Shown: in pieces, positions 17,144-45,195 of the stretch
Position numbering within the stretch: the first letter of the stretch is position 1
How the letters are laid out: the number at the start of each line of letters is the position of its first letter
Source of the DNA: Candidatus Endomicrobium labiotermitis
Lineage (GTDB): Bacteria; Elusimicrobiota; Endomicrobiia; Endomicrobiales; Endomicrobiaceae
Direction of reading: 5' to 3'
DNA length: 53,253 bases
Assembly: GCA_009778965.1 (NCBI GenBank)
Contig: WRFE01000005.1
Coordinates: 1-53,253 of the forward strand
The notes under the pieces: generated by a model
Told to the model about the DNA's origin: nothing
The model's database searches: none
What the model saw: only the letters and a program-made list of their open reading frames with translations
Position numbers and translations under genes: made by a program

Positions 17144-20100
17144 TTACGCTGCGGTGAGTATAGCTCTCATTCCTGACATGGTATATTCTTTAGTAGGATC
17201 TTTCTTGTCTTTTAAATCTTTAATGGCGGCAAAACCGTAAATGTCTATCATCTCTATAACAGTGTTGACATTATCTTTCTTTTCTTTTGCTTTAGCTGCA
17301 TCAATACCTTTTAAATCTTCTTCCGTAAGTCCGGTAAGTTCATTTAATTCCGTAAACCTTATTATATCTTCGGTTTTCAGGCTGTTTTGTCCTAATAAGC
17401 TTTGGAATTTATCAATAGTATCTTCAATTTTACTTATTTCCGTGTCTGAAGCTTTTGCAGCCAGTTTTTCACGCAAAACAAGCATTTTGCCTAATGTGCG
17501 TATCATTTTTTCATCTTTCAATACAAAGCCTTTTTTATTTTTTATAAAACTGGCTGCCAATATCATTTCTATAACGGCGTTTTTATAAGCTTCTCTGGCT
17601 TCATCAGTAATATTTAGATTCAGATTTGTTAATATGGGTAAAGACATTTTCTTTATTGCTTCTTCAGCATCTATTATTCTTGTTGCCTCAGGCAAATTAG
17701 CTAAATTCATATTATACGCTCTTCTTATTGCTTCATTTATTCCAATGCCGTCTAAACTGATATTAAAAAATCCGGACAGCCATTCAAACGCATTTCCCAT
17801 TTTATTTCTTGCGTTATCAAAAATTCCTATAAGAGTATCCAATTCTATCATTGTATATCCGTCAAACCTGATTTTTAAATCTTCCGCGTTTTTTGCCTGC
17901 CTTATTTTTATAAATTCGCCGGTATATCTGTCATATAAAGCGTCGCCTTTTATAATTCCGCTAAAACCTTCTTTAGCGTATTCGGCGTTGCTTCTGCTTC
18001 CGGCGATATAAACCTCTATTCCTAAATTATGTAAATCGGACATGGTTTTATTATTGTTTTTAAGCAAATCTTGTAAAGTATTATACGCGTAACCGTTGTC
18101 TTCCACAACAATCCTTTTTGCGGATATTTCATTTTGATTAACAATGTCTTTAATAACATTTTCAACGCGTTTTTCATCTGAATTTACCAAAGATATCAAT
18201 TGCAGTTCAGCCTGTGCCGCGCGTCCTAGCCTTTTTTCTTCTCTTAAAGACGCTGTATATTCATTAATGTCGCTTTTTACGGCATTTTGGAAGTCTTCGT
18301 AACCTACTTTTATCATATCTCCGTTAAATTCTTTTCCGGTTTTGTTTATTGTATCAACAACTATAGAATCAACGCTTACGTTTTCGCCTTTGAGCTGTGT
18401 AACAGCTTTCACTGCCTTACTTAGTATGGCGCTTGCCTGCAATGTATTTATTATATCTTCTGTTTTAATGCCTTGTGCGGAAAATACAACATGTTTGCCT
18501 GTTTTTTGCATATAAATCTGTTTGCCGTCAACTTTTAATCCGGTAGGAGTGCCTTCGGATTTTTTAGTGTTAATTAAAATTAAAGCAGTATCACCGGCAA
18601 GTTCAATGTTTTTTAGAGTATTTGCTTTTTCAGAATCTTCCATGAAAATTGCCGTTGCCGGAGTAACTGCGTTTATATTGAAATATACATTTATGAATTC
18701 TAAAAATTTTACCGCCTGCTGCTCTGATATTTGTTTTCCGACAACGAGTTTGTTAACTTCATTAATAGCGGCTTTGATTGTGTTTTCTATGGTTTGGTCC
18801 GAAACTGCCGTATCAACCATGTCGCTTTCAGAAAGATCAAGCGCGCCGAATGTATCTGCGTCTGCCATGTAATAACGGCTTCTTCCGTCTTGCACTACTG
18901 TCTGTGTAACTTCATAACCATGTCTTTGATAAAAAGCAACTCTATCCTCATTAGTATGAAAATGCAGATTTTTGTCTTCTTTTTTAAATTCTTCTCTTAC
19001 TTTGTCAAGAAAAATTCCTCCCACCCCTTTTCCTCTATGTTGAGAATCTGTCGCAAAAAATCTAAGTTCGTTGTCTTTAAACAGCATTGCCGATATAACA
19101 ACGCCGTCTTTTTCGGCAACCCAGACGTTGCCTTTATAATTATTGCGCATATTTGTCCCATTTCTTATGCTTTCAAATACATATCCTCCAAATTGATTTC
19201 TAAGTAAAGAGTAAGCGGCATTAAAATCTTTTCTGGTATCAGCTTTTCGTACCGAAATATCATTCATTTCGGAAGTAAGAGCTAAAGTTGCTTTAAACTC
19301 GTTAAGCATTTCGTTAAAGCCTTTTGCTGATTGACTTTCTGCGGACTTATCGCTGGATATAGCGGAGTCATTATAAGAATAATCTATATATTTTTTATAG
19401 TCTTGAAGCAATTCAAATAAAAAACTCATACCCAGACCGTCAAAAACAGATACTAGTGAAGAATCTATATCAAAAAAATCATACGCTCCGACTACAAAAA
19501 TTACATTTTTCATTTTTTCAGGATGTTCTAAAAAATATCTAAATTCTATTCCCGTAAAACTATCGGAGTAGCCATAGGCATTTTTCTCATATTTAAGTTT
19601 TTTTGAAGGCAAGAAAAAAACAAACGGTCTAACGTAACCGTATTTTGCCATATCTCTTTTCTCGATTTTATCAATAACTTTTGGAAATTCTTCCTGATAA
19701 TAAGGCAAAGACCACTTGAGCGGATCGTATCCGAATTCTTCTTCAAAAGCATGCCAATTAAACATATTGAAATATTCCGGCCAAAAATTTCCGGGCGAAT
19801 ACACTAAATTTTTCTCCCTGCCTTCAAATTTTTCAATTCCCAAAAGCATTGATCCGTCAAGAGTTCTTCCGTCAAAAAAATCTTTGTTCATGCGAGAATC
19901 AACAAAAGAATAGAAATCCATTACTGCAAGAGAATTATTACGCACTTTTTTCATAACATTTTCATCAACCCTTCCATTGTCTAATCTGGAAAAATCCATT
20001 AGTTTCTTATCAGTATCAATCGGAAGAAATCTGCCGGATACAAATACGTCTCCTAAAATAGCGTTTATGGGTTTTTCTTTAGATAAACTGTTAAAAATAA

Positions 20101-23100
20101 TAATAGAATCTTTGCTATTAATGGTTCCGTCCGGAGATTTTTCATCAATTGATCTATAGCCCATTTTGGTTATTTGTTCATAATCAAATCCTAAAAGAGC
20201 AAGAGTAAAAACAGTTTGGGTGATTTTAATGTTCTTTTGCTTAAAAGTATAAAGTTTTTCCAAAATATCGTTATCCGCATACTTGCCAAAACCCAAAAAT
20301 ACGTCTGCGTGTTGTTCCAAATCAAGGAAGAGTTCAATATATTTATTATTAATTTTTTTAATATCAATGTTTCCAAAACGCGAAATATATAATAAAACTT
20401 TAGGAGTTTTGCTAAAGACATCCTTAACTTTTATATTTTTTTCTATTGTATCCAATCTGTTAAAAAAGTCTGCGGCATTATCCTTTAACAGCCATTCGCC
20501 TAACCAATTTTTACCGACTGTTTGTTGAAAATTCCATATAAAAGCCAATGTGTCATAATATTTCTCAGATATTTTAGCTTTCGTATCCCTAAAAAACGCT
20601 ATCCTTAGTTGTTCCCTTAAAGCTACTCTTCTTTCTTCATTTTTTTCATTTTCCGCGTCTGAATAATGAGTATACAGAAATCCATAATATACATCCTTTA
20701 TGTTGTCTAATTCTGTCTGCAGATAGTCCGTTGTTTCGGATATAATATCATAGGGAAGCTTAGCTGATTGTTCTTGTTTTTTGTCTGTTGTAAGCGCAAT
20801 ATGTGCATAATCTTTATTCCATTTAGCATGGCTTATTATCAAGGCGATATTTACTGCAATATTTTGTAAAAATTTAATACTGTCAAACCTCATATAAGCC
20901 TTTCCGGCAGACTGCATAATTCTTTTAAAACCTGCCTCATAATGGGCGGCAGTAGATTCATTATATCCTGAATGTTCTTCAAAAAACTTCTGCTTTTCGG
21001 ATAATGCTTTGCTTTCATCAATCTCCCACAAATCAAAAATATTTTTCAGGATACTTCTCTCAACTATGGGTGCGATTGCAACTTGAACGATTCTCAGACC
21101 TTTTTCTCCGAAGAGCTTAATTAACAGCCTGCTGTACCATTTTGTTAAGGTCGTATCTGATGTTAAAGCAGGATGGTTTTTATAATAATTGCTAATAATC
21201 TCTCTGCCTCTTGCTTCCAGCGCAGCATCTTTTTCATTAAAAACTCCTGTTTCTGTCAATCTCTTTTGATATAAATAATCAAGAAGTACCTTAGCATCTA
21301 TTCCAAGTTTGTTTAATTGCTCCATAGTGATAATAGATTTAGCATTAATATTTTTATTCTCAAGATCCTTTTCTAATACGGCTATAAGAGCATTAGTATC
21401 ATAATATCCTTCGAGAGAAACAATAAATTGTGCTATATTTAAGATTGTTTGACCTTGTTTATTGAAATCTTTATATACATCATCAATAACTTGAACTGCC
21501 ATTTCTTGAGCTAACACATGCTGTTCTGCTGGTGTTTTTCCTCTATATAATTCATTTCCATAATTAATACGTTTACCGTCTATATGACTATAAGCATTAT
21601 ACAGCGACTGTAAATCAATTCCCATTTTATCTAATTTTTGTTTTACTTCTTGTAGCAGTGATAGTCTATCATTGAAATCAGTATCTTTTGCTAAATTATG
21701 TTTTACTTCTATCTCATGTTGTTTTCTAAAATTTTCTAGATTAGTCTGATTTTTATTCTCATCATCACTATAATAGCTAAGAATATCTTTTATAATACTC
21801 ACAAAGATCGACATAGCTGGATTATATCCTAAGTTACTATGTCCTTCATTTAGTTTTTCAACAGCATCAAGAAGAGCTTTAGTATTATCCGGTTTAACTG
21901 TTGCTGTTTCAACTTGTTTGTTAGCATTTTTTTCTGTAGTTTTTGATTCTTGTTCTGCAAGTTTTTCAGAAGTTTCTTTTAAAACAGGCAAATCATAAAA
22001 ATTCTCAATGCCGCTTCTTTTTATTAACCAATATTTAGGATGGTTTCCTAAAAAACCTTCACTTCCCGTAATACCGCCAAAAGGATACCAGATACCCTGA
22101 TCTTTACTCCCTGTTCCATAAGCTGATCTATAAAATAAAAATCTTTGACCATTACTATATTTTATTTCAACAATATCTCTATTTATAAAATGAAATCTAT
22201 TAAGAACTTCAAATTGAACATGTTTGTTTCCTATTTCTTCCTGCATTTTTTCAATATCATTAAAAAAACCGAAATATTTTTCTGGACCATTATCATTAGT
22301 GCTTTCTTCTTCCGATATATAATATTTTTTACCTTCGCCGCCTTTTCTGTCTTTTCCCGCAACCCAATCTAAAAATTTCAGACTATCTTGTACTTCTTTA
22401 CTGTTCCTTAATTCTTCTTTTACAAATTTCTCAATTTCATTTTTACTCATATGTGGAAGATAATTCTTATCCATGATATGATCAACAGCTTCAAAATACA
22501 TTTCGTCAACAATAAAAGCAACAACAGATTGATCATTTAAAACTAAATCTATTAAATTACTTTTATTTCCTGATTGCGCAGCTAATTGTTTATTATTTTC
22601 TTTTACATCAGCCTTTACTTCATTTTCTATTACGATTTGTTCATTATTTTTATCAACTTCAATAAATTCTTTTTTTCCTTCAGATAATATTCGTAAAAAT
22701 CCAAATTTTTCTCTTTCGGCTACTACTATGTGATGATTTGGAAATACTTCTTTATGCCAGCCGCCATTGTCTATATTACCAGGACTATGACCTACTATTA
22801 GTGCGGCATTATCAGGATCCATATTAAAAGCCTTTAAAAAAGCATTCACATCTTCACCGGTATATGCCAGCTCTGCATCTCCGGAGTATCTGTTCCAAAT
22901 TAATTGATACACAGGATTTAATTTTTTAATTTTATCTATGATTTTTCGATTTTTTTCATCAGAGAGTTTTTTAACAACATGGACATTTACGTATTCTTTT
23001 ATAAGTTCAGAGCTTTGTAAAGCACCTTCAAAATCTCCTTCCATCTTAATATTTTTTACTATTTGCATAAATATAGGATCATTATGGTCTAATCCTTGTA

Positions 23101-26100
23101 GGAACTCCGCAATTTCATAATCCATCATCTTTTCAGTCTTTTTTTCTTTAACAATAGGACCGGCATGCGCCGCTATAAAATTATCTCCCAGGGCAACCAA
23201 ACCATTTTGATATAATGCATTGAAATAATCATTTATAGTACTTTCATCAAATAGCGCCTTTAAAAACATATCGTAAAACATAGCCTGCGGTACATGTTTT
23301 ACGATATCTTTTTCAATATCGTGATTTCCGAGCATATAATAGACATTTTTAGGAGATTTTATTTTCAAATCCATTATCAAATCCATTATTTCAAAAGAAG
23401 TATGCATTTGAGCAGCTTTTTCTTTGTTTTGATCGTGGACAGCGTCTCCGAGAAAGACTAAAACGGCATCTCCTTTTTCTATTTTTTCTTTATTGCTTAC
23501 TCCGAAACTGTCCTTTGTTTCCAATATATTTTTAAGATTATCAATTTTGGCATGCAGATCCCCTACGACAATAACTTCTTTTCCGTTTTTTCTCAAATCA
23601 ACCAAAGCGCCTTTTTGATAGCCTCCATTTTCACTTCTGCCTTTATCCATCGCTTTTAGATACTCTTTTATTTTATCGGATTTTTCTTTTTTCTGCTGTT
23701 CCCAATACTTTTTGATGTTTTCTACATTTCCCGGTTTTTGTAACGCTTCCTTAATTTCGTTAAGTATTTTTAATGCTTCCATAGCTTTCTCAAAATCCAT
23801 CTCAAAATCTTCTTCACTATTTGGAAGCGAACGATTCAAACCTAAAATTTCTTTTTCGGAATCAGTTAAATTACTTTTTATAATTTCTTCCAAAGATAAT
23901 AAATTGTTATTTCCGATAAGTAAACTTATAACGTCAAGATTTTTACTTAATCTGTCAATTATGTTTTTTTTTGTTTCATTTCTTCTCATCTTTTCATCTG
24001 TATCCGTTGATAACGCTCTGTCTTTGTTTTTTGCATTCCAGGCTGCATGACTTATTATCAATGTGATATTTACTGCAATATTTTGTAAAAATTTAATACT
24101 GTCAAACCGCATATAAGCCTTTCCGGCAGACTGCATAATCTTTTGAAACCCTGCCTCATAACGGGCAGCAGTAGATTCATTATATCCTGAGTGTTCTTCA
24201 AAAAACTTCTGCTTTTCGGATAATGCTTTGCTTTCATTAATCTCCCACAAATCAAAAATATTTTTCAGAATGTTTCTTTCAGCTATGGGCGCGATTGCAA
24301 CTTGAACGATTCTTAAACCTTTTTCTCCAAACAGTTTTATCAAAAGTTTGCTGTACCATTTGTCTAGTGTTGCATCTGATGTTAATGATTTGTAAGGCAA
24401 GGAATCGGGGATTTCAGAAAATACTTCTTGAAAAACTCCAAATGCCGGAGTTTTATTGCCGTTATTATCTAAAAGCCCGTAAGTTCCTTCTGGCTCATCT
24501 TTATGCATTAACGCAAAATAGTAATAGCTTGTCTCGGGATGATTCTTAATAATATCAGCATGACTTTCAGCGAGTCCTGTATTATTCGGGTCTCCGCCGA
24601 TTTCTCCAAAACCAATATGTGGCATCTTACCGCCGATTCTCGCAAAAATATTTTTCGTTTGTTCTATTGCGCTATAATCGCTTCCATGTCTATAAACGTT
24701 CAGCAAAACCGCGTCAAGTTCTAATTCTGCATATTTTTGAGCATCTTCTTCGGAAGGAACTTCCCCGTGAACAGTTCCGACAGGAGTCGATGATAAACTG
24801 CGTACTATACCGACGCCGTCTTCTAAATATGTAAGCCACTCATTTCTGGAAAACCATTTTCCGGGAAGTCCTCCGGCAGTATCTGTAAAGTGGTAATTAA
24901 ATTCATTGCCTATCAAATACATTGCGACAACGCCTAAATTATTTTCAGGGTTTGTTTTGCTGTCAAATTTTTGTATAAATTCCCGCAAGAGTCCGTTATA
25001 ACCAAAATCTCTATCACTCATACCTATTGATATGCTGATTTTTGCGTCTTTAAAAGCTTTTAACATCTCAGTTGTTTTTTCCCAGTCGGGAGTTGTTCCG
25101 TCATAAGCAATAGGAAGACGATATGTCCTTATAGAGTTGATGCCGAGTTCGTTTAAGTTTTCGATAAGTCCTTTTTTGTAATACTCATAAAATTCAAAAA
25201 TATTGCCATTATGGTCGTTAGGAACATTCCAGGCAATGCCTTTTGCGACATATATTACTCTGTTTCCATTTTCGTCGATCGCGGTTAATGCCCCGTTTTC
25301 ATCCACGCTAAAATCTTTAAAAGCCATTTTTTGTTTTTTATAAGTTTGTTCCGTTGAGGTCGGATTTGAAGCCGGATCATTATTATTAGTGATATTACAC
25401 GCTGTAGCAGATAACAGCATTATTAAGATAAGAGTGCCTGTTATAATTGTTTTAACAACTTTTCCAACCGAAGGCGATTTTTTAGACAAGTCAATAGCGG
25501 ATGAGTCGGATAAATATTCTGCCGCATTGACTCCCCATAACCCGGATTCTTTTAAAACAGCCGAAGGCAAATCCGAAGCATGGACAAGGTTCATTATTAT
25601 GCCAGTGTTTTGATCTCTTGTAGCATATTTGCCTCGTATAGTCTTCTTTTCCACATCCTTTGTAAAATCCGTCGGACCAAGCGCTTCCCGTACTGCGTTA
25701 ATCGCATTTGTGCCTTCTAAAATATAAACATGTAAATTTTCGCCTTCTCTTTTGTTAAGTTCTCCCATCATATAAGAGATAAGACCTTCTAAGAAAGGTT
25801 TCCCTTTGTGCTCTTCATAATGTTCTTTAAACAAATCACGAGTCGCGGTAACTTCGTTTTGTTTTACTATTTTAAATCCCTTGCTTTGCAGCTCGGCTAA
25901 AACTTCGTCCTCGTACGCATATCCGTCAGGTTTAATCATTATAAAAGTTCTATGAACGGTTTTTGCCGATACTTCTTTTAATGTTTTTTCCAATATTTCT
26001 TTCGATAAACCTGTTTCGATAAGCAATTTTTCAAATTCCGCCAAAAATATTGTGCCGAAAACTCCGTCGGATTTAGCTTTGTCAAATTGTTTTCCTGTTT

Positions 26101-29100
26101 TTTGTTCAGTAATTGATTTGGCTTGCTGTTGCGCTTTTTCAATAAGTATAGTTTTTAATTGTTTAATATGATTTTCCAAACTGTCAATCTTTGTGTGAAC
26201 GTCATTTTCTGATAATTTAACCGTCATAAGTTCTTCAAAAGCAGGCGCTGACGGCTCTTTATAATATTCTAGAAGTTGTTTTTGAGCATTATTATAAAAC
26301 ATACGGGCTTCATCATATTTTTGCCTAAGATTGCCTTCAAGGCTGTCCGGGTTTATATTTGATATAAGTCCGCTCAGTTCTTCAATTCTGGCTTTTTTTG
26401 ATTCGTAGATTGCTTTTGCATCCGATTCCAGCTGTTCAAAATATTTTTTATCTTCAACCGAAGGGGAGTATTCGCCTTTTTTCCACAGGCGGTACGCGCC
26501 TTCTTTCATCATAACAGCCAATAGGTTTTTAAGATAATCCGAAACTTTATTTGCGTCATCAATAGTCGAAATTCTGTCTCTGTTATCTCCGTATTCTATA
26601 AGTCCGGAATGCGCGATAGCCAGCTTATTTCCCGGATCAGATTTACCTTTGGAAGGTGTAAATATCATTGAAATACTGCCGTCCAGTCCCTTATTTACGG
26701 TAATATTTCCCGGAAGACCGGCATTTGGCGCGGCAATCATAGAGTCAACTGACAAAGAGTTGTAATGAGGAAAAGTAAAATTATGATTTAATATTATTTC
26801 ATTAAGAATTTTATTAGCCGTTTCCGTATCATAACCGAATAAAGTTTTACTTACTTTCTGTTCAATGGTTTCTGCTTCAGGACGTTTGTATTGTACGGGT
26901 CTGAGCTCTCCGTCTTCGGCATTAACGGCATACCAATTGAATTTTTTATCTATGACTATAAAAGCGCCGTTTAAATTAGTCTGGACTCCTGCCGCGGTTT
27001 CACTTTGAATATTAAGTCCTAAATCGCTTGCACGAAGCGCGGTTACGGTAATATTTTTCTTTAACCCGACAATTACCGGCGCCGACATATCTTGAGAATC
27101 TAATATTTTTTTAATATTAAATGCTTTTTGCAATGCGTCTTGCAGAGAAACATTAGCGGCGCTTCTGTTATCGGTATTAACTTCATTAATACTGATATTG
27201 CCGGCGTCTCCGCCGTATGCGGTGTCATAATCGATTTTTCCGATTATATAGAAATCCGGTCTGTCTTTTGCGTCCGTTTGTAACGCAATAACACTTCCGG
27301 AATCTATAAAGAATTGAAAAAGGACTCCTAAATCTATTAATTCTTTATATTGTTTTGCGAATTGGTTTTTGGTTTTTTCGTCATATATATCATTGCTGTT
27401 AATAAATTCCTTAGCTCCGGAAATAGAGTCTCTTAACCATTGTTCGTCTTTGCCTGAAAATACTGCCAATTCTTCATATCCGACGTGTTTTCCGTCTTTT
27501 ATAAATTTATAGTTTTCTATGTCTGTTTTTCCGAAGTCATCATGCAAAAATGACATATATAACGCGTTATCCACGGACCCTATGCTTGAACTTATGCCTT
27601 TAGGGAGAGAATTGAAAAAACTTTCCGCATCTTTTTTAGTGTTTATCGCGGGTATTTTGTATCCGAAGAGAGGGGCTTTTTTTATAAAAGTAAAAACAGG
27701 CAGTTTCATTCCTTTGTTTTTAAATATTTTGTCCGCTCTTAATATTAAACCTGACAGTATTTTTTGCGTTATAGTCGCATGCGGCGGATAACTGTCCAAA
27801 AGTTCGGATTCATCGGCTATATTTTTTTGGTTTCCGGCAACCGTCACAACGTCAACAGGAGTCGCCTCAACCTCTGTATAATTAATAGGTTTCAAGCTTG
27901 AAGGATCACTGTTGACGATATGAAATTTTGTAACATTGCCTTTTTCATCAGTCTTTTTTATAAGCAGGAATGAACCGCTTTTAATGTCCTGGCGGTTTCC
28001 GTTTGAATTGACAACTGTGAGAGAAATGTCTGACAATTTAGATACGGGAATAAGTTTTTCATAAGTCGTTTTTCTTAAAGGAACAATATTGTTGCCGTTG
28101 GAAGTATCTATGCCTAATTTATTTTTTAAAATACCGGATAAGTCTGAGTTATGCTCATCTACATAATCTTTTTTTACTATTTCATAAGGACCGCCGTCTT
28201 CAAGAAGAAAATCTTTTTTCCCGATTATATAAATGTCCAATTCTCCGGATTCCATTGTCTGCAAAGCAATCGCGCTGCCTTTTTGTTCCAAAAGTTCATC
28301 CAAAAGTCTTGCTGTTTTATATTCTTCGGAAGTTTCACCGTAAAATGTTTTTGCGGTTCTTGATTCTTGGCTTTCCGCGCTTGCGAACCATTGCTGATCC
28401 ATTGCGCCGACCATAGACACAAAGTTTTTCGGAAGCTGATTATAATAGAAATCAATAGCTTCTTGTCTGTTCTTAAACTCGGGTATTTTATAGCCGAAAA
28501 TAGGATTTTTTTCCCATTCTTCGGTAATAGTATTGTCTTTTTTTATTGCGGAATTTATGATATCAAGCATTTTGTCGTATGAAACAATACGGCGATTGTA
28601 TAAAATCTTTTGTATAAACGCGGGGTAACGGTCAAATTCATGTCTGGAAATTCCGGAGATATATTCCGCATCTGTTTCAGCTTTATCTATTATTCCGGCT
28701 TCGCCTAATCCCATATTGAAGAAAAGGCTTCCGACCTGCTTTAAAACTTTTACGTCTAAATTGTTAAAAATATCACCCAAGCTTTCTAGAACTTTTATAA
28801 CATCGGAAATATTTTTGACTTCTGTAATGTTATTTTTAGAAATTTGATGATCTTCGCCGTTAATTATTATATTGTTCTCGTTTATTGTTATTTCAAAATT
28901 TGAGTTTTTAATAAGGTCATCTATCTCAGACTGATTAAGTCCTGCGTTTATTGCCGCCTGAATTATCATTGCCGTTTGATTTGCCGACGGAATATTTGAC
29001 GCTAATATAGCCGCCAATGCTTCCGAGGGGAATTTTGCCTGTGCTATTATCATCTCTTTATATCTTGCGTGGGCTTTACTTATATCGGTAGTTACGTTTG

Positions 29101-30604
29101 GAGTTATCACTATAGAAGATATGCCTTTTTCAGATAATAGTTCTTTTAAACCCTCGCTATGGTAGCCGCCGGCGATTATTATTTTTACGTCTTTTGCGTT
29201 AGAGAGAATTTCCGCAGCTGAAGAAGGAGTATCCGTCTTTGCTTCGTTGACGCGCGTTAAAACATTTTTGTCAAATATATGCGATAAAAATATTTCATTT
29301 CTGCGTGTATTGATATCATAGTATTTAGTTAATTCCGCAAAATCGGCTTCTATAGCTTTTAAATTGTTATAAGCTGAGTACTTAGCATATATAGATGTAA
29401 AGAAATGCAAGTTTTCTTTAACATATATCCAGTCATCTTGTGTGAGTGAAGCAGTAAGAAAATCTCCAAAATATTTTTTAAAATCCGTAATAAACGATAT
29501 TTCCGCTTCGGTATTATTGTAAGCCAGCGCAAATTTTATTTTTTCAATCAATATACGCTGTTCGCTTAGTAAATCTACCGGATTTAATACTTTTGTAAAA
29601 TCGTTTATTGCCGAAAGCTTGTTTAGATTTCTGTATCTGGACGCTGCTTCGGGATTTGCTTTTAGAAATGCCGAAACAAATTCTATTAGTTTTTCGCTGT
29701 CCTGAAAATTATTTGTATCGTCTATTATCTGCTTATATTGATTGTAAGATATAGTGTTTTTAAGCGTTCCGATTAAGGCTTGAAGTTCCATCGCCGCTCT
29801 TTTATCGTCGGTTTTTTGCGCCTCTTTTATCATTGTTAAATAGAATTTAATATTCGGATAGTTATCAAGTTTTATTTTGGTAATATTGTTGTATTTTGAC
29901 GGATTTTCGCTTATTGCAGTTACATGTTTTTCAAGGATCTGATACAATTTTGCGTCAGCTATTTTCCCTTCGGAATATTTTTCGAGAGTTCTGTTGAAAC
30001 GTATATTTCTGCCGTTTGTATAAAGTTTGTTTAAAATGTCGATTTCTTTATTTACTTTAGCAATAATTTCTTCGTATTTCGCTTTGTTGTTTTCTATGTC
30101 GGCAAGTCTTTTTATATTTTCCGCATGTGTTTTCTTGTCTTCAATACCTTTTACCGGAAGAGCGTCTTTAACAGTCATGGCATAATATTCGCTTGCCGTT
30201 AAATCTCCGCTGTTTACAAGCTGTTCTATTATTTTTTCTTTGAGCTTTTCGTCTTTAATCTGGTTTATCCAGCTGACGTCTATTTTGCCGAAACCGCCTT
30301 CAGTGTAAATTCCGGAAACATTATATTTCGAAGCCATCGAGTCTATAATTTTTGAAATATTTCTTTGCGTGTCAGAATGAGCGTGAAGATCCTGAATGTT
30401 TATTACAACTATGTCGCTGTGTTTATCGGTCAGGCTTGTTACTTTTCCCTGTGACATCGGAATAATCGAGAAATTGAAATTATTCAGAGTGTTTCCCGCG
30501 GGTGCAGCAGGGATGGCGGCATTGGCATTTGCCGTCAGCGAAGAAAAAAGAAAAACAGCCGCCACTGATAATGAAATGAATTTTTTTAGATTAAATTTTT
30601 TCAT
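17144..30604 (-). CDS. giant exported multidomain protein (4,486 aa)
   Basis: Uninterrupted 13.46-kb ORF; signal peptide 'KKFISLSVAAVFLFSSLTANANA'; GGAGA upstream of the ATG. Confidence 0.93.
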   Translation of the reverse strand: MKKFNLKKFISLSVAAVFLFSSLTANANAAIPAAPAGNTLNNFNFSIIPMSQGKVTSLTDKHSDIVVINIQDLHAHSDTQRNISKIIDSMASKYNVSGIYTEGGFGKIDVSWINQIKDEKLKEKIIEQLVNSGDLTASEYYAMTVKDALPVKGIEDKKTHAENIKRLADIENNKAKYEEIIAKVNKEIDILNKLYTNGRNIRFNRTLEKYSEGKIADAKLYQILEKHVTAISENPSKYNNITKIKLDNYPNIKFYLTMIKEAQKTDDKRAAMELQALIGTLKNTISYNQYKQIIDDTNNFQDSEKLIEFVSAFLKANPEAASRYRNLNKLSAINDFTKVLNPVDLLSEQRILIEKIKFALAYNNTEAEISFITDFKKYFGDFLTASLTQDDWIYVKENLHFFTSIYAKYSAYNNLKAIEADFAELTKYYDINTRRNEIFLSHIFDKNVLTRVNEAKTDTPSSAAEILSNAKDVKIIIAGGYHSEGLKELLSEKGISSIVITPNVTTDISKAHARYKEMIIAQAKFPSEALAAILASNIPSANQTAMIIQAAINAGLNQSEIDDLIKNSNFEITINENNIIINGEDHQISKNNITEVKNISDVIKVLESLGDIFNNLDVKVLKQVGSLFFNMGLGEAGIIDKAETDAEYISGISRHEFDRYPAFIQKILYNRRIVSYDKMLDIINSAIKKDNTITEEWEKNPIFGYKIPEFKNRQEAIDFYYNQLPKNFVSMVGAMDQQWFASAESQESRTAKTFYGETSEEYKTARLLDELLEQKGSAIALQTMESGELDIYIIGKKDFLLEDGGPYEIVKKDYVDEHNSDLSGILKNKLGIDTSNGNNIVPLRKTTYEKLIPVSKLSDISLTVVNSNGNRQDIKSGSFLLIKKTDEKGNVTKFHIVNSDPSSLKPINYTEVEATPVDVVTVAGNQKNIADESELLDSYPPHATITQKILSGLILRADKIFKNKGMKLPVFTFIKKAPLFGYKIPAINTKKDAESFFNSLPKGISSSIGSVDNALYMSFLHDDFGKTDIENYKFIKDGKHVGYEELAVFSGKDEQWLRDSISGAKEFINSNDIYDEKTKNQFAKQYKELIDLGVLFQFFIDSGSVIALQTDAKDRPDFYIIGKIDYDTAYGGDAGNISINEVNTDNRSAANVSLQDALQKAFNIKKILDSQDMSAPVIVGLKKNITVTALRASDLGLNIQSETAAGVQTNLNGAFIVIDKKFNWYAVNAEDGELRPVQYKRPEAETIEQKVSKTLFGYDTETANKILNEIILNHNFTFPHYNSLSVDSMIAAPNAGLPGNITVNKGLDGSISMIFTPSKGKSDPGNKLAIAHSGLIEYGDNRDRISTIDDANKVSDYLKNLLAVMMKEGAYRLWKKGEYSPSVEDKKYFEQLESDAKAIYESKKARIEELSGLISNINPDSLEGNLRQKYDEARMFYNNAQKQLLEYYKEPSAPAFEELMTVKLSENDVHTKIDSLENHIKQLKTILIEKAQQQAKSITEQKTGKQFDKAKSDGVFGTIFLAEFEKLLIETGLSKEILEKTLKEVSAKTVHRTFIMIKPDGYAYEDEVLAELQSKGFKIVKQNEVTATRDLFKEHYEEHKGKPFLEGLISYMMGELNKREGENLHVYILEGTNAINAVREALGPTDFTKDVEKKTIRGKYATRDQNTGIIMNLVHASDLPSAVLKESGLWGVNAAEYLSDSSAIDLSKKSPSVGKVVKTIITGTLILIMLLSATACNITNNNDPASNPTSTEQTYKKQKMAFKDFSVDENGALTAIDENGNRVIYVAKGIAWNVPNDHNGNIFEFYEYYKKGLIENLNELGINSIRTYRLPIAYDGTTPDWEKTTEMLKAFKDAKISISIGMSDRDFGYNGLLREFIQKFDSKTNPENNLGVVAMYLIGNEFNYHFTDTAGGLPGKWFSRNEWLTYLEDGVGIVRSLSSTPVGTVHGEVPSEEDAQKYAELELDAVLLNVYRHGSDYSAIEQTKNIFARIGGKMPHIGFGEIGGDPNNTGLAESHADIIKNHPETSYYYFALMHKDEPEGTYGLLDNNGNKTPAFGVFQEVFSEIPDSLPYKSLTSDATLDKWYSKLLIKLFGEKGLRIVQVAIAPIAERNILKNIFDLWEINESKALSEKQKFFEEHSGYNESTAARYEAGFQKIMQSAGKAYMRFDSIKFLQNIAVNITLIISHAAWNAKNKDRALSTDTDEKMRRNETKKNIIDRLSKNLDVISLLIGNNNLLSLEEIIKSNLTDSEKEILGLNRSLPNSEEDFEMDFEKAMEALKILNEIKEALQKPGNVENIKKYWEQQKKEKSDKIKEYLKAMDKGRSENGGYQKGALVDLRKNGKEVIVVGDLHAKIDNLKNILETKDSFGVSNKEKIEKGDAVLVFLGDAVHDQNKEKAAQMHTSFEIMDLIMDLKIKSPKNVYYMLGNHDIEKDIVKHVPQAMFYDMFLKALFDESTINDYFNALYQNGLVALGDNFIAAHAGPIVKEKKTEKMMDYEIAEFLQGLDHNDPIFMQIVKNIKMEGDFEGALQSSELIKEYVNVHVVKKLSDEKNRKIIDKIKKLNPVYQLIWNRYSGDAELAYTGEDVNAFLKAFNMDPDNAALIVGHSPGNIDNGGWHKEVFPNHHIVVAEREKFGFLRILSEGKKEFIEVDKNNEQIVIENEVKADVKENNKQLAAQSGNKSNLIDLVLNDQSVVAFIVDEMYFEAVDHIMDKNYLPHMSKNEIEKFVKEELRNSKEVQDSLKFLDWVAGKDRKGGEGKKYYISEEESTNDNGPEKYFGFFNDIEKMQEEIGNKHVQFEVLNRFHFINRDIVEIKYSNGQRFLFYRSAYGTGSKDQGIWYPFGGITGSEGFLGNHPKYWLIKRSGIENFYDLPVLKETSEKLAEQESKTTEKNANKQVETATVKPDNTKALLDAVEKLNEGHSNLGYNPAMSIFVSIIKDILSYYSDDENKNQTNLENFRKQHEIEVKHNLAKDTDFNDRLSLLQEVKQKLDKMGIDLQSLYNAYSHIDGKRINYGNELYRGKTPAEQHVLAQEMAVQVIDDVYKDFNKQGQTILNIAQFIVSLEGYYDTNALIAVLEKDLENKNINAKSIITMEQLNKLGIDAKVLLDYLYQKRLTETGVFNEKDAALEARGREIISNYYKNHPALTSDTTLTKWYSRLLIKLFGEKGLRIVQVAIAPIVERSILKNIFDLWEIDESKALSEKQKFFEEHSGYNESTAAHYEAGFKRIMQSAGKAYMRFDSIKFLQNIAVNIALIISHAKWNKDYAHIALTTDKKQEQSAKLPYDIISETTDYLQTELDNIKDVYYGFLYTHYSDAENEKNEERRVALREQLRIAFFRDTKAKISEKYYDTLAFIWNFQQTVGKNWLGEWLLKDNAADFFNRLDTIEKNIKVKDVFSKTPKVLLYISRFGNIDIKKINNKYIELFLDLEQHADVFLGFGKYADNDILEKLYTFKQKNIKITQTVFTLALLGFDYEQITKMGYRSIDEKSPDGTINSKDSIIIFNSLSKEKPINAILGDVFVSGRFLPIDTDKKLMDFSRLDNGRVDENVMKKVRNNSLAVMDFYSFVDSRMNKDFFDGRTLDGSMLLGIEKFEGREKNLVYSPGNFWPEYFNMFNWHAFEEEFGYDPLKWSLPYYQEEFPKVIDKIEKRDMAKYGYVRPFVFFLPSKKLKYEKNAYGYSDSFTGIEFRYFLEHPEKMKNVIFVVGAYDFFDIDSSLVSVFDGLGMSFLFELLQDYKKYIDYSYNDSAISSDKSAESQSAKGFNEMLNEFKATLALTSEMNDISVRKADTRKDFNAAYSLLRNQFGGYVFESIRNGTNMRNNYKGNVWVAEKDGVVISAMLFKDNELRFFATDSQHRGKGVGGIFLDKVREEFKKEDKNLHFHTNEDRVAFYQRHGYEVTQTVVQDGRSRYYMADADTFGALDLSESDMVDTAVSDQTIENTIKAAINEVNKLVVGKQISEQQAVKFLEFINVYFNINAVTPATAIFMEDSEKANTLKNIELAGDTALILINTKKSEGTPTGLKVDGKQIYMQKTGKHVVFSAQGIKTEDIINTLQASAILSKAVKAVTQLKGENVSVDSIVVDTINKTGKEFNGDMIKVGYEDFQNAVKSDINEYTASLREEKRLGRAAQAELQLISLVNSDEKRVENVIKDIVNQNEISAKRIVVEDNGYAYNTLQDLLKNNNKTMSDLHNLGIEVYIAGSRSNAEYAKEGFSGIIKGDALYDRYTGEFIKIRQAKNAEDLKIRFDGYTMIELDTLIGIFDNARNKMGNAFEWLSGFFNISLDGIGINEAIRRAYNMNLANLPEATRIIDAEEAIKKMSLPILTNLNLNITDEAREAYKNAVIEMILAASFIKNKKGFVLKDEKMIRTLGKMLVLREKLAAKASDTEISKIEDTIDKFQSLLGQNSLKTEDIIRFTELNELTGLTEEDLKGIDAAKAKEKKDNVNTVIEMIDIYGFAAIKDLKDKKDPTKEYTMSGMRAILTAA
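18855..19262 (-). other. GNAT acetyltransferase-like domain within the giant protein
   Basis: 'FFATDSQHRGKGVGGIFLDKVREEF' acetyl-CoA motif and 'VAFYQRHGYEV'. Confidence 0.85.
20826..21165 (-). repeat. internal duplication copy 2 in the giant gene
   Basis: Near-identical to 24045-24385. Confidence 0.95.
22690..23590 (-). other. calcineurin-like phosphoesterase (PPP-like) domain within the giant protein
   Basis: 'VVGDLHAKIDNL', 'LGDAVHDQNK', 'LGNHDIE', 'HAGP', 'VGHSP'. Confidence 0.85.
24045..24385 (-). repeat. internal duplication copy 1 in the giant gene
   Basis: Encodes 'WYSKLLIKLFGEKGLRIVQVAIAPIAERNILKNIFDLWEINESKALSEKQKFFEEHSGYNESTAARYEAGFQKIMQSAGKAYMRFDSIKFLQNIAVNI'; near-identical to 20826-21165. 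Confidence 0.95.
24410..25330 (-). other. glycoside hydrolase-like TIM-barrel segment
   Basis: 'YVAKGIAWNVPN...LNELGINSIRTYRLP', 'LIGNEFNYHF', 'GFGEIGGD...'; conserved-looking acidic residues in NE and GE contexts. Confidence 0.6.
25375..25460 (-). other. internal hydrophobic segment with lipobox-like motif
   Basis: 'KTIITGTLILIMLLSATACNITNNNDPASNPTSTEQ'. Confidence 0.6.
25560..25975 (-). other. nucleoside diphosphate kinase-like domain within the giant protein
   Basis: 'RTFIMIKPDGYAYEDEVLAELQSKGFKIV' and 'MNLVHASD' (NxVHxSD active-site motif). Confidence 0.85.
26830..28510 (-). repeat. diverged tandem duplication within the giant protein
   Basis: Two modules, each with 'FGYKIP', an 'S[SM][VI]G[AS][VM]D' segment, 'GSxIALQT', '[DF][IF]YIIGK' and 'LLIKK/IVIDKK'. 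Confidence 0.6.
29090..30500 (-). other. N-terminal ChaN/TraB-like segment of the giant protein
   Basis: 'VVINIQDLHAHSDTQRNISKIID...GIYTEGG' and 'KIIIAGGYHSEGLKELLSEKGISSIVITP'. Confidence 0.35.
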
Positions 30605-31288: not shown

Positions 31289-31480
31289 TGCCGCATACAC
31301 GCGTTTATGAGTGAGTATTTTTTAGGGGAAGTCAGCGAGGACTGTTTGAGCGCACAATGTGCGTGAGTTCCACAGCTGCCTAAAAAATGCGAACGAATGC
31401 GTGTCAGCGGCGGGCATTTTTGATTACTTTTTGCGCTCGTGCAAAAAGTAATTCGGGTTCAGGGCGAAGCGCTTGAAAAC
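31289..31480 (+). repeat. about 190-bp structured dispersed repeat, copy 1
   Basis: GCCGCATACACGCG...TTTTTTAGGGG...CCTAAAAAA...GCGGCGGGC.TTTTTGATTACTTTTTGCGCTCGTGCAAAAAGTAATTCGGGTTCAGGGCGAAGC; matches 41673-41857 in the same orientation. Confidence 0.92.
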
Positions 31481-39333: not shown

Positions 39334-40167
39334 ATGAACGAAAAGTCATTAGCGTTATCGGTTTTTGAGGATTTTAACATTCGCAGGCAATATGACGAAA
39401 AGCAGGAAAAGTGGTATTTTTCGATAGTGGATGTCATACAAGCTTTAACTGGTAATCAAAGACCAAGAAAATATTGGGACGACCTTAAACGCAAATTAAA
39501 GGAAGAAGGAAGTGAGTTGTCCGAAAAAATCGGACAACTGAAGTTAAGGTCATCTGATGGCAAGTTTTATGCTACTGATGTTGCTGATCCTGAGCAGCTT
39601 TTTAGGCTTGTTCAATCCATTCCAAGCCCAAAGGTTGAACCATTTAAGCTTTGGCTTGCGAAAGTAGGTTATGAAAGGATTCAGGAGATAGCAGATCCTG
39701 AAAAATCTGTAAACCGTGCGCGTGAAAATTGGCAGAAACACGGAAGAAGCCAAAAATGGATTCAACAACGTATGATGGGACAGGAAACACGCAATAAACT
39801 TACCGACTATTGGAAAGAACATGGTATTAAAGAAAAAGACGAGTTTGCGATATTAACAGACATAATACACAAAGAGTGGACAGATTTAACTGTTAAGCAG
39901 CATAAATATATAAAAGGACTAAAATCGCAAAATCTACGCGACCATATGAGCGAAGCCGAGTTAATTTTTACGGCATTGGCAGAACTTTCTACAAGACAGA
40001 TTGCGGAAACCGAAGAAGCCGACGGTATGAAAGATAATGCCAAAGCAGGCATTGTAGGCGGAAGAATAGCTAAAAAAGCCAGATTGGAATTAGAGCAAAA
40101 AACTGGTAAAAGCGTTGTAAGCGGAAACAATTTTTTACCTAAAGATAAAAACAAGAAATTGAAATGA
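39334..40167 (+). CDS. Bro-N domain / DinD-like antirepressor-family protein
   Basis: 'VFEDFNIRRQYDEKQEKWYFSIVDVIQALTGNQRPRKYWDDLKRKLKEEGSELSEKIGQLKLRSSDGKFYATDVADPEQLFRLVQSIPSPKVEPFKLWLAKVGYERI'. Confidence 0.9.
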   Translation: MNEKSLALSVFEDFNIRRQYDEKQEKWYFSIVDVIQALTGNQRPRKYWDDLKRKLKEEGSELSEKIGQLKLRSSDGKFYATDVADPEQLFRLVQSIPSPKVEPFKLWLAKVGYERIQEIADPEKSVNRARENWQKHGRSQKWIQQRMMGQETRNKLTDYWKEHGIKEKDEFAILTDIIHKEWTDLTVKQHKYIKGLKSQNLRDHMSEAELIFTALAELSTRQIAETEEADGMKDNAKAGIVGGRIAKKARLELEQKTGKSVVSGNNFLPKDKNKKLK

Positions 40168-40175
40168 TAATTTTC

Positions 40176-40362
40176 CAGCTATTTCCATTTTGGAAATAGC
40201 TGAAAGTATGTAAGAAAAACTTACATATTTATTTAATACGAACTATCTTGTTTTTCCGGATAGTTGAATACAAAAAGCAATGTGCAATTTTTGCACATTC
40301 CAATATGTGTAAAATATGCACAAGTTGGAAGGATTTTAACTGTTCGGAATTTCCGAACAGTT
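40176..40362 (+). repeat. array of six consecutive short hairpins downstream of the Bro-N gene
   Basis: Arms/loops: 40176-40202 CAGCTATTTCCA/TTT; 40204-40230 aagTATGTAAG/AAAAA; 40241-40265 AACTATC(TTG)/TTTTT; 40279-40299 AATGTGCAA/TTT; 40300-40328 CCAATATGTGTA/AAATA (one mismatch, G-U pairs); 40338-40362 AACTGTTCGGA/ATT. Confidence 0.95.
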
Positions 40363-40423
40363 GGATTAAACCATAATTAAAATTATTTTAAATATATTGA
40401 AGTCTTAAGGAAAGGAAACAGAA

Positions 40424-41578
40424 ATGGCAAAACGTGATTTTTATGAAGTGCTTGGCGTGCAAAAGTCTGCGGCTACGGACGAAATCAAGTCGGCTTACAG
40501 AAAGCTGGCTTTAAAATATCATCCCGACAAAAACCCGGGAAATAAAGAAGCCGAAGAAAAATTTAAAGAAATTAACGAGGCTTACGAAGTTTTGTCCGAT
40601 ACGCAAAAAAAGCAGCAGTACGATACTTTCGGCCACGATGCTATGGGCGGCGCAGGCGGCGGAAATCCATTCGGGGGCGGAAACCCGTTTGGCGGCGGCG
40701 GTTACGCGCAGTATGGCGACAATATGGGCGACATTTTCGGAGATATTTTTAATAACGTTTTTGGCGGCGGAGCTGAAAGAGGCGGCAGAAAATCCTCTCA
40801 ACGCCGCGGAGATGATTTAAGATACGATATTGAAGTTTCTTACCTTGAAGCAATGAAAGGCGCTGAAATTTCAATTGAAGTGCCAAAAAAAGAAGTTTGC
40901 CAGACTTGTCACGGCAGCGGAGCAAAAGACGGCGCAAAGCCAAAAACTTGTTCGCAATGCAAAGGTTCGGGACAGGTAAAGTATTCGCAGGGGTTCTTTT
41001 CGTTCAGCCAGGAATGTCCGCAATGCCGCGGTAAAGGAAGCATAATAGATAATCCCTGCCAAACATGCAGAGGCGAAGGCGCGGTCAAAACAAGAAAAAC
41101 CATAAAAGTAAGAATTCCCGCGGGTGTTGATGAAGGAACTTCTTTAAAAGTTACCGGTTCGGGAAATGCCGGTTCAAACGGTGCGCCTGCCGGGGATTTA
41201 TATGTAGTTGTTCATATGAAAAGCCAAAGAGGTTTCAACAGAAGCGGAGATGATTTATATACGGAAATAGTAGTATCTTTTTCACAAGCAGCAATGGGTA
41301 TGGAATATGAAGTGCCCGTAGTTGACGGAAATGTAAAAGTAAAAATCCCGCCCGGCACGCAGCCTTCTACAACTTTAAGGGTAAGGGAACAGGGTTTTCC
41401 GAAACTTGGCAGAACAAATACCAGAGGCGATTTATACGTAAAAGTTAATGTAAATATACCGAAATCCATGAATGACGCGCAAAAACGCGCTCTTTTTGAT
41501 TATGCGAAAGCTATGGGCGAAGTCCCGAAAGACCAACAGTATCAAAACGACAGTTTTTTTAAGAAAATCTTTGGATAG
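40424..41578 (+). CDS. dnaJ: chaperone DnaJ
   Basis: '[35 protein letters not shown]', G/F-rich region, four CxxCxGxG zinc motifs. Confidence 0.98.
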
Positions 41579-41672: not shown

Positions 41673-41857
41673 TGCCGCATACACGCGTATATGAACGAGA
41701 ATTTTTTAGGGGTAGTCGGCGAGGACTGTCTGAGCAAAGCGAGTTCCACAGCCGCCTAAAAAAAGTGAGTGAATGAGTGTCAGCGGCGGGCGTTTTTGAT
41801 TACTTTTTGCGCTCGTGCAAAAAGTAATTCGGGTTCAGGGCGAAGCACCTGAAAAAC
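41673..41857 (+). repeat. about 190-bp structured dispersed repeat, copy 2
   Basis: Matches 31289-31480 in direct orientation. Confidence 0.92.
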
Positions 41858-42675: not shown

Positions 42676-42745
42676 CGTCATTGCGGTCACTGAACCGCAA
42701 TCTCGTTGTAAATCATAGATTGCGGGTCGGAGCCCGCAATGACAA
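42676..42745. repeat. dispersed palindromic repeat (GTCATTGCGG family)
   Basis: CGTCATTGCGGTC...CCGCAATC...GATTGCGGG...CCCGCAATGACA. Confidence 0.75.
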
Positions 42746-45098: not shown

Positions 45099-45195
45099 TT
45101 TGTCATTCCGGACTTGATCCGGAATCTATGTTGTTTTTAGAATTGCTTGAAGACAGTAACAAAAGTGGATCCCGTTTTTCAACGGGATGACACGG
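45099..45195. repeat. dispersed repeat TGTCATTCCGGACTTGATCCGGAATC...GGATCCCGTTTTTCAACGGGATGACA
   Basis: Intergenic element with inverted TGTCAT/ATGACA ends. Confidence 0.65.

Follow-up and report, generated by a model that had tools for sequence, protein, structure and literature searches.

We analysed a 53,253-nucleotide stretch of Candidatus Endomicrobium labiotermitis DNA (contig WRFE01000005.1, positions 1 to 53,253; hereafter the window) in which an array of six palindromes stands directly downstream of a Bro-N gene. Computed directly, palindromes of the same format are conserved inside the genes of three protein families (Bro-N, RhuM and ORF6N), their cores correlate with the residues of the encoded recognition helix, the cores of the array match those of RhuM genes, and arrays of this kind recur elsewhere. 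These patterns make it probable that the array hairpins and the gene-embedded palindromes are double-stranded DNA (dsDNA) operators of the RhuM/ORF6N/Bro-N superfamily, with the array as a possible docking region.

The array (H1 to H6) spans 40176-40363, no more than 196 nt past the Bro-N stop codon (40167), inside the interval 40168-40423 that reaches up to dnaJ. All six strandless sites follow a 27-nt, odd-centred palindromic format with an A/T centre, in which 11, 9, 8, 10, 7 and 11 of 11 pairs are complementary in H1 to H6, respectively, and the spacers between sites are only ~0-10 nt. H1 (40176-40202) has 12-bp perfect arms around a loop of 3 nt, H2 (40204-40230) has perfect arms of 8 bp (11 bp with one G.T), the inner part of H4 (40276-40302) has 9-bp perfect arms at 40279-40299, and the arms of H6 (40337-40363) are at least 11 bp; H3 (40240-40266) and H5 (40301-40327) are imperfect. 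The initial annotation had described six back-to-back inverted repeats, four with perfect arms, forming neither a tandem repeat nor a clustered regularly interspaced short palindromic repeats (CRISPR) array. On these points it holds: the sole similar pair is H4/H5, at 78%, and the sites share no flanks. The 'TRT core' in its hairpin plan is more aptly a half-site of 6 nt, located 3-8 nt off the palindrome centre and here called the core. Against the genomic background (20-kb stretches of the same genome) the array is unusual: a first scan of 453 kb found no comparable cluster, the other clusters being terminators and repetitive extragenic palindromic (REP)-like palindromes, and a later model-based scan of this genome (G000) added a single pair of such sites, at C7.

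A seventh palindrome of this format, overlooked by the initial annotation, lies inside the Bro-N gene itself (39334..40167 (+), 277 aa), whose winged helix-turn-helix (wHTH) protein matches Pfam Bro-N (PF02498, 1.4e-8) and PADLOC PDC-S13 (1.6e-121; hereafter S13). This putative self-operator (39514..39540, strandless, core GTCCGA) encodes ELSEKIGQL and follows the predicted recognition helix (codons 44-57, 39463..39504 (+); AlphaFold helix 44-57). The palindrome recurs at the same codons in 96 of the 96 S13 homologues, from many phyla, that could be scored for it. Two synonymous positions, base 3 of a Glu/Gln codon and base 1 of a Leu codon, form G-C in 64 genes and A-T in 32, with no exception. 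Other codon pairs change jointly, so that the amino-acid pairs themselves co-vary (V-H, V-N, V-D, S-G, Y-V, S-R, T-S). The covariation score of the S13 palindrome is 0.568, versus 0.191 after shuffling and no more than 0.113 when partners were slid.

The same palindrome is embedded in RhuM and ORF6N genes. A covariance model built from the Bro-N gene palindromes matched genes of both families, as well as intergenic sites in relatives. At least 9 of 11 pairs were complementary at a fixed place in 27 of 28 RhuM genes and 28 of 28 ORF6N genes, compared with 4/222 and 8/115 equal-sized windows elsewhere in those genes, respectively. Larger sets gave 78/81 RhuM and 45/47 ORF6N genes with the palindrome, and covariation scores reached 0.870 (RhuM) and 0.625 (ORF6N). 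The embedded site occupies an equivalent place in all three families, ~10 codons past the recognition helix, and its reading frame varies between and even within families, indicating that the nucleotides rather than the peptide are conserved. The palindrome does not extend to E. coli K-12 dinD, which shares the nickname given to the window gene (best 7 of 11 pairs), and the window's S13 protein matched no NCBIfam model, DinD's included. As a separate observation, ORF6N genes with two palindromes 93 nt apart were seen (L235 in genome G072; G069 C4 47104-47223), the cores differing in L235.

The core of the embedded palindromes tracks the recognition helix of the encoded protein. Across 94 S13 genes, palindrome distance correlated with the preceding 45 residues given the C-terminus (partial Mantel r 0.65, 0/2000 permutations); the C-terminus given the N-terminal part yielded a partial r of 0.02. 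RhuM provided an independent repeat (partial Mantel r 0.53, 0/2000; C-terminus -0.07). The most informative S13 residues, 46, 49, 50 and 53 (adjusted mutual information 0.85, 0.89, 0.81 and 0.66), lie together on a single face of the helix predicted at 44-57, and the best residues are spaced i, i+3, i+4, i+7 in S13 and RhuM alike. S13 residues 49/50 correspond to the core GGTTAC when KV (35/35), GGTGAC when NK (35/35), GTACGA when SD (6/6), GTCGAC when FK (3/3) and GTCCGA when DD or ND (4/4). In RhuM, helix residues STR go with GTTGCA (14/14) and SVK with TGTGCA (3/3); at the third position, K accompanies TTCC, TGCA or CGCA and E accompanies CGG or AGG. ORF6N follows the same helix-core logic by inspection.

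In leave-one-out prediction, 73 of 76 S13 six-mers were recovered from relatives below 70% identity (11.7 expected) and 33 of 54 RhuM six-mers from relatives below 60% identity (3.7 expected), figures inflated by shared ancestry, since related genes are reused and the identity limits lessen but do not remove its effect. The code also made predictions for three plasmid-borne genes of named bacteria that were retrieved later, and all three fit. A helix-core correlation together with an embedded site would be expected of a dimeric DNA-binding protein whose operator lies within the gene that encodes it.

Read with this code, most of the array is of RhuM type. The Bro-N-gene-trained covariance model, which found almost no matches over 400 kb of this genome, hit H1 (E 2.2e-7), H6 (6.7e-5) and H4 (0.009) in the window, and a RhuM-only model hit H1 (E 4.4e-7), H6 (5.0e-7), H2 (0.05) and H3 (0.28). 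A RhuM core occupies at least one half of 5 of the 6 sites, with consistent helices, compared with 4 of 300 control palindromes of the same genome and 0.75% of random 6-mers of the same composition. H1 carries ATTTCC, present in RhuM genes and of the PAI[SN]KH helix type; the right half of H3 carries ATCCGG ([KR]TINEH type, 4 RhuM genes); H4 carries TGTGCA (DRSVITKH type), as does the right half of H5; and H6 carries GTTCGG (K[AS][NT]I[SN]EH type, core in 3 RhuM genes). Nineteen nucleotides of H4 are identical to the site inside a RhuM gene (L304). The S13 gene's own core, GTCCGA, is missing from the array. Most simply, the array would gather operators representing four or more RhuM specificities, with that of S13 not among them. 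The initial annotation had proposed hairpin or cruciform sites for the neighbouring protein; the sites do belong to that protein class, but since S13 has its own site in its gene and the array cores are RhuM-type, the neighbour does not appear to be their reader.

Similar groupings occur elsewhere. The largest array seen, in genome G077, comprises at least 10 ORF6N-type palindromes with several cores in ~760 nt (L167 1501-2266, C220), with an additional pair of sites 2.5 kb away. On a viral contig (L333), two sites with different specificities (TGTGCA and GTTGCA) stand immediately behind a RhuM gene whose core is TTTCC, a layout like that of the window. Further pairs were found at L071/L201, L126, L416, L422 and L296, and sites of foreign specificity lie 27-44 nt upstream of RhuM or ORF6N genes. 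Shuffled sequence (1.95 Mb) yielded only one equally good cluster. Besides these, in genome G004 we observed a palindrome, GAAYTGCCGCAAAATTTGCGGCARTTA, in several MITE-like (miniature inverted-repeat transposable element-like) copies with shared flanks (L405 1821, L406 1631, L407 1689); a similar palindrome lies 3' of a RhuM gene (L246).

That the palindromes are operators of the RhuM/ORF6N/Bro-N superfamily has strong computational support and is, in our judgement, very likely. Binding, binding as a dimer and repression we infer from sequence patterns. Each site of ~27 bp, with its A/T-rich centre, would be bound as a duplex by a winged-helix protein of the superfamily, and every superfamily gene would hold its own operator in its coding sequence ~10 codons past the recognition helix. 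A homodimer on the palindrome would probably repress the gene from within (autoregulation), and an operator inside the regulator's own gene would keep binding specificity coupled to its target as both move and evolve. What the array does is a more tentative matter: its likeliest use, though at less than even odds, would be as a docking, decoy or cross-regulatory region, on which RhuM-type proteins of resident or incoming elements would dock and either be titrated or switch the S13/dnaJ region. Many bacterial genes carry no annotation beyond RhuM, ORF6N or Bro-N protein. If the operator reading is true, the DNA target of any such member is legible in its own gene, and sequence alone yields the recognition code of a winged-helix superfamily that is widespread but uncharacterised, making its function directly testable. 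It would also account for amino-acid covariation in these proteins that lacks a protein-level cause, and arrays would then be regulatory or protective elements of a new type, connecting mobile or defence genes that compete.

Several observations weigh against this reading. The AlphaFold model of S13, a winged-helix fold, is of moderate confidence (predicted local distance difference test, pLDDT, 73), and its best Foldseek match in the PDB, the DdrC dimer (E 5e-5), is weak when the full length is considered, with low template modelling (TM) scores (0.30-0.38 on the query). Leave-one-out success is inflated by the shared ancestry noted above. Within the array, the H2 core TGTAAG resembles TTAAG types and has no exact counterpart among known RhuM cores, H3 and H5 are half-decayed (H3 in its left half), and the mismatches are five G.T and no A.C, which leans slightly to a + strand RNA. 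The genome as searched holds no intact RhuM or ORF6N gene and no family-level match, so readers of the array would be absent today. Among S13 loci only this one has the array: none stands behind 80 homologues of the S13 gene from many phyla (65-73% identity), an outcome that the initial annotation had named as refuting and that here tells against a fixed link between gene and array. Hairpins within 200 nt downstream of homologues occur at 0.075 per locus, like background, ruling out a conserved companion of the S13 gene.

The gene order hrcA-grpE-dnaK-variable genes-GCAxxG gene-J protein-dnaJ is kept in relatives; in the window, dnaJ (40424..41578 (+), Pfam DnaJ and DnaJ_C) starts ~60 nt past H6. 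S13 and the array take the place of a second J-domain gene of G001 and G003 (L400, L401) that is missing here, marking a variable spot. The array as a general companion of dnaJ was ruled out, since no palindrome precedes dnaJ in relatives G002 and G003.

The main rival for the use of the array, possible though on balance unlikely, is that it is a set of scars of gene turnover: RhuM-type genes would repeatedly have entered the interval from the GCAxxG gene to dnaJ, and their deletion would have left functionless palindromes that are operators by origin. The variability of the spot and the decay of H3 and H5 fit this view, as do the many isolated sites elsewhere that lie within short gene remnants. 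At C7 of the window's own genome (L126 15132-15387), a RhuM fragment with an internal stop ends at its palindrome, and 12 nt further on stands a second RhuM-type site, near-identical to that of a RhuM gene (L309). However, tblastn found no coding remnant around the six sites, whose close spacing leaves little between them, and we rejected an identification of the array as RhuM gene remnants for this lack of flanking coding similarity, keeping scars as the rival. The outer arms of H1 (CAGCT/AGCTG) are symmetrical, unlike those of the RhuM genes examined, and clean isolated sites with no tblastn-detectable remnant are common.

A more speculative extension of the operator reading, to which we give little credence, holds that arrays form a protective register: each site would sequester or sense one incoming RhuM, ORF6N or Bro-N specificity, conferring immunity or triggering a neighbouring defence-candidate gene.

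It is improbable that the sites are mobile palindromes, small repeats copied by the encoded proteins or another enzyme much as REP sequences are by REP-associated tyrosine transposases (RAYTs). The dispersed copies of GAAYTGCCGCAAAATTTGCGGCARTTA with shared flanks in G004 would suit such an origin, and the sites cluster as bacterial interspersed mosaic elements (BIMEs) do. The array sites, however, differ in core and share no flanks, no transposase model matched the S13 protein, and the helix code implies sequence-specific binding to dsDNA.

Highly improbable is the multi-hairpin RNA offered as one option by the initial annotation, in which the array would be transcribed after Bro-N and its transcript would either work as a structured or processed molecule or supply the Bro-N protein with RNA hairpins. 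The fold is indeed very stable, at -74.6 kcal/mol on the + strand against a shuffle mean of -34.7 (z -10.1, 0/200); the + strand folds better than the - strand (z -10.7), and the array mismatches are G.T in the + sense. Against this, the cores track the recognition-helix residues, as those of a dsDNA operator would, leaving the RNA unsupported. Mismatched inner pairs in the gene-embedded set are 10 G.U, 16 A.C and 19 other, and the missing G.U excess speaks against an RNA helix. No Rfam covariance model reached its gathering score in the window, no transfer RNA (tRNA) was found, and the array is not conserved behind homologues. Selection for structure, as the initial annotation proposed, survives in another form: both trained models match the array, placing it among palindromes of a kind selected for symmetry, not as a multi-hairpin RNA.

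That the array consists of ordinary transcription terminators or REP-like extragenic palindromes is extremely improbable: the genome is rich in such palindromes and H1 and H4 are terminator-like on the - strand, but there is no + strand terminator call within 40168-40423, two trained models single out the array in the window, and RhuM cores are rare in the control palindromes.

REP-like families are themselves dispersed over the genome (ATTGCGG..CCGCAAT, ATTCCG..CGGAAT and ATACCG..CGGTAT; window 42680-42740 and 45105-45188, also L121-L138), and two identical 30-nt palindromes, ATTACTTTTTGCGCTCGTGCAAAAAGTAAT, at window 31423-31452 and 41799-41828 are an apparent dispersed repeat. Elsewhere in the window, 17144-30604 (-) is a single open reading frame of 4486 aa.

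S13 is nearly absent from viral contigs (1 locus), and RhuM and ORF6N occur there. On an Arcobacter cloacae plasmid (L427 2992-3888), an S13 gene is flanked by cas4 and cas1 in a type I-B CRISPR locus. RhuM has been described in restriction-modification (R-M) operons and as a RhuM-Doc fusion (PMC3710099). Our search for embedded palindromes, arrays, PDC-S13 and RhuM with ORF6N found no description in the literature, with most subscription journals and preprints outside its reach.

The families are already known as PADLOC defence candidates: S13, RhuM/ORF6N and RhuM-Fic proteins match the models PDC-S13, PDC-S05 and PDC-S23. What appears to be new here is the embedded palindromes, the protein-to-DNA code and the arrays. 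The fold of S13 is closest in the PDB to DdrC of Deinococcus radiodurans, a dimer titled there as a DNA-binding protein, a likeness limited by the weak full-length match; we know of no link between DdrC and palindromes. With REP sequences and BIMEs the array shares short palindromes clustered between genes, but the sequence varies from unit to unit according to a protein code, and the units have counterparts within genes. Operators inside coding sequence have a precedent in lacO2, which lies in lacZ, and the resemblance is that of a palindromic dsDNA site in a gene, here for a regulator that would bind as a dimer. In the superfamily described here, by contrast, almost all members examined in the three families have the putative operator within the very stretch of the regulator gene that encodes the DNA-binding domain, and there it varies in step with the recognition helix, following a readable code.
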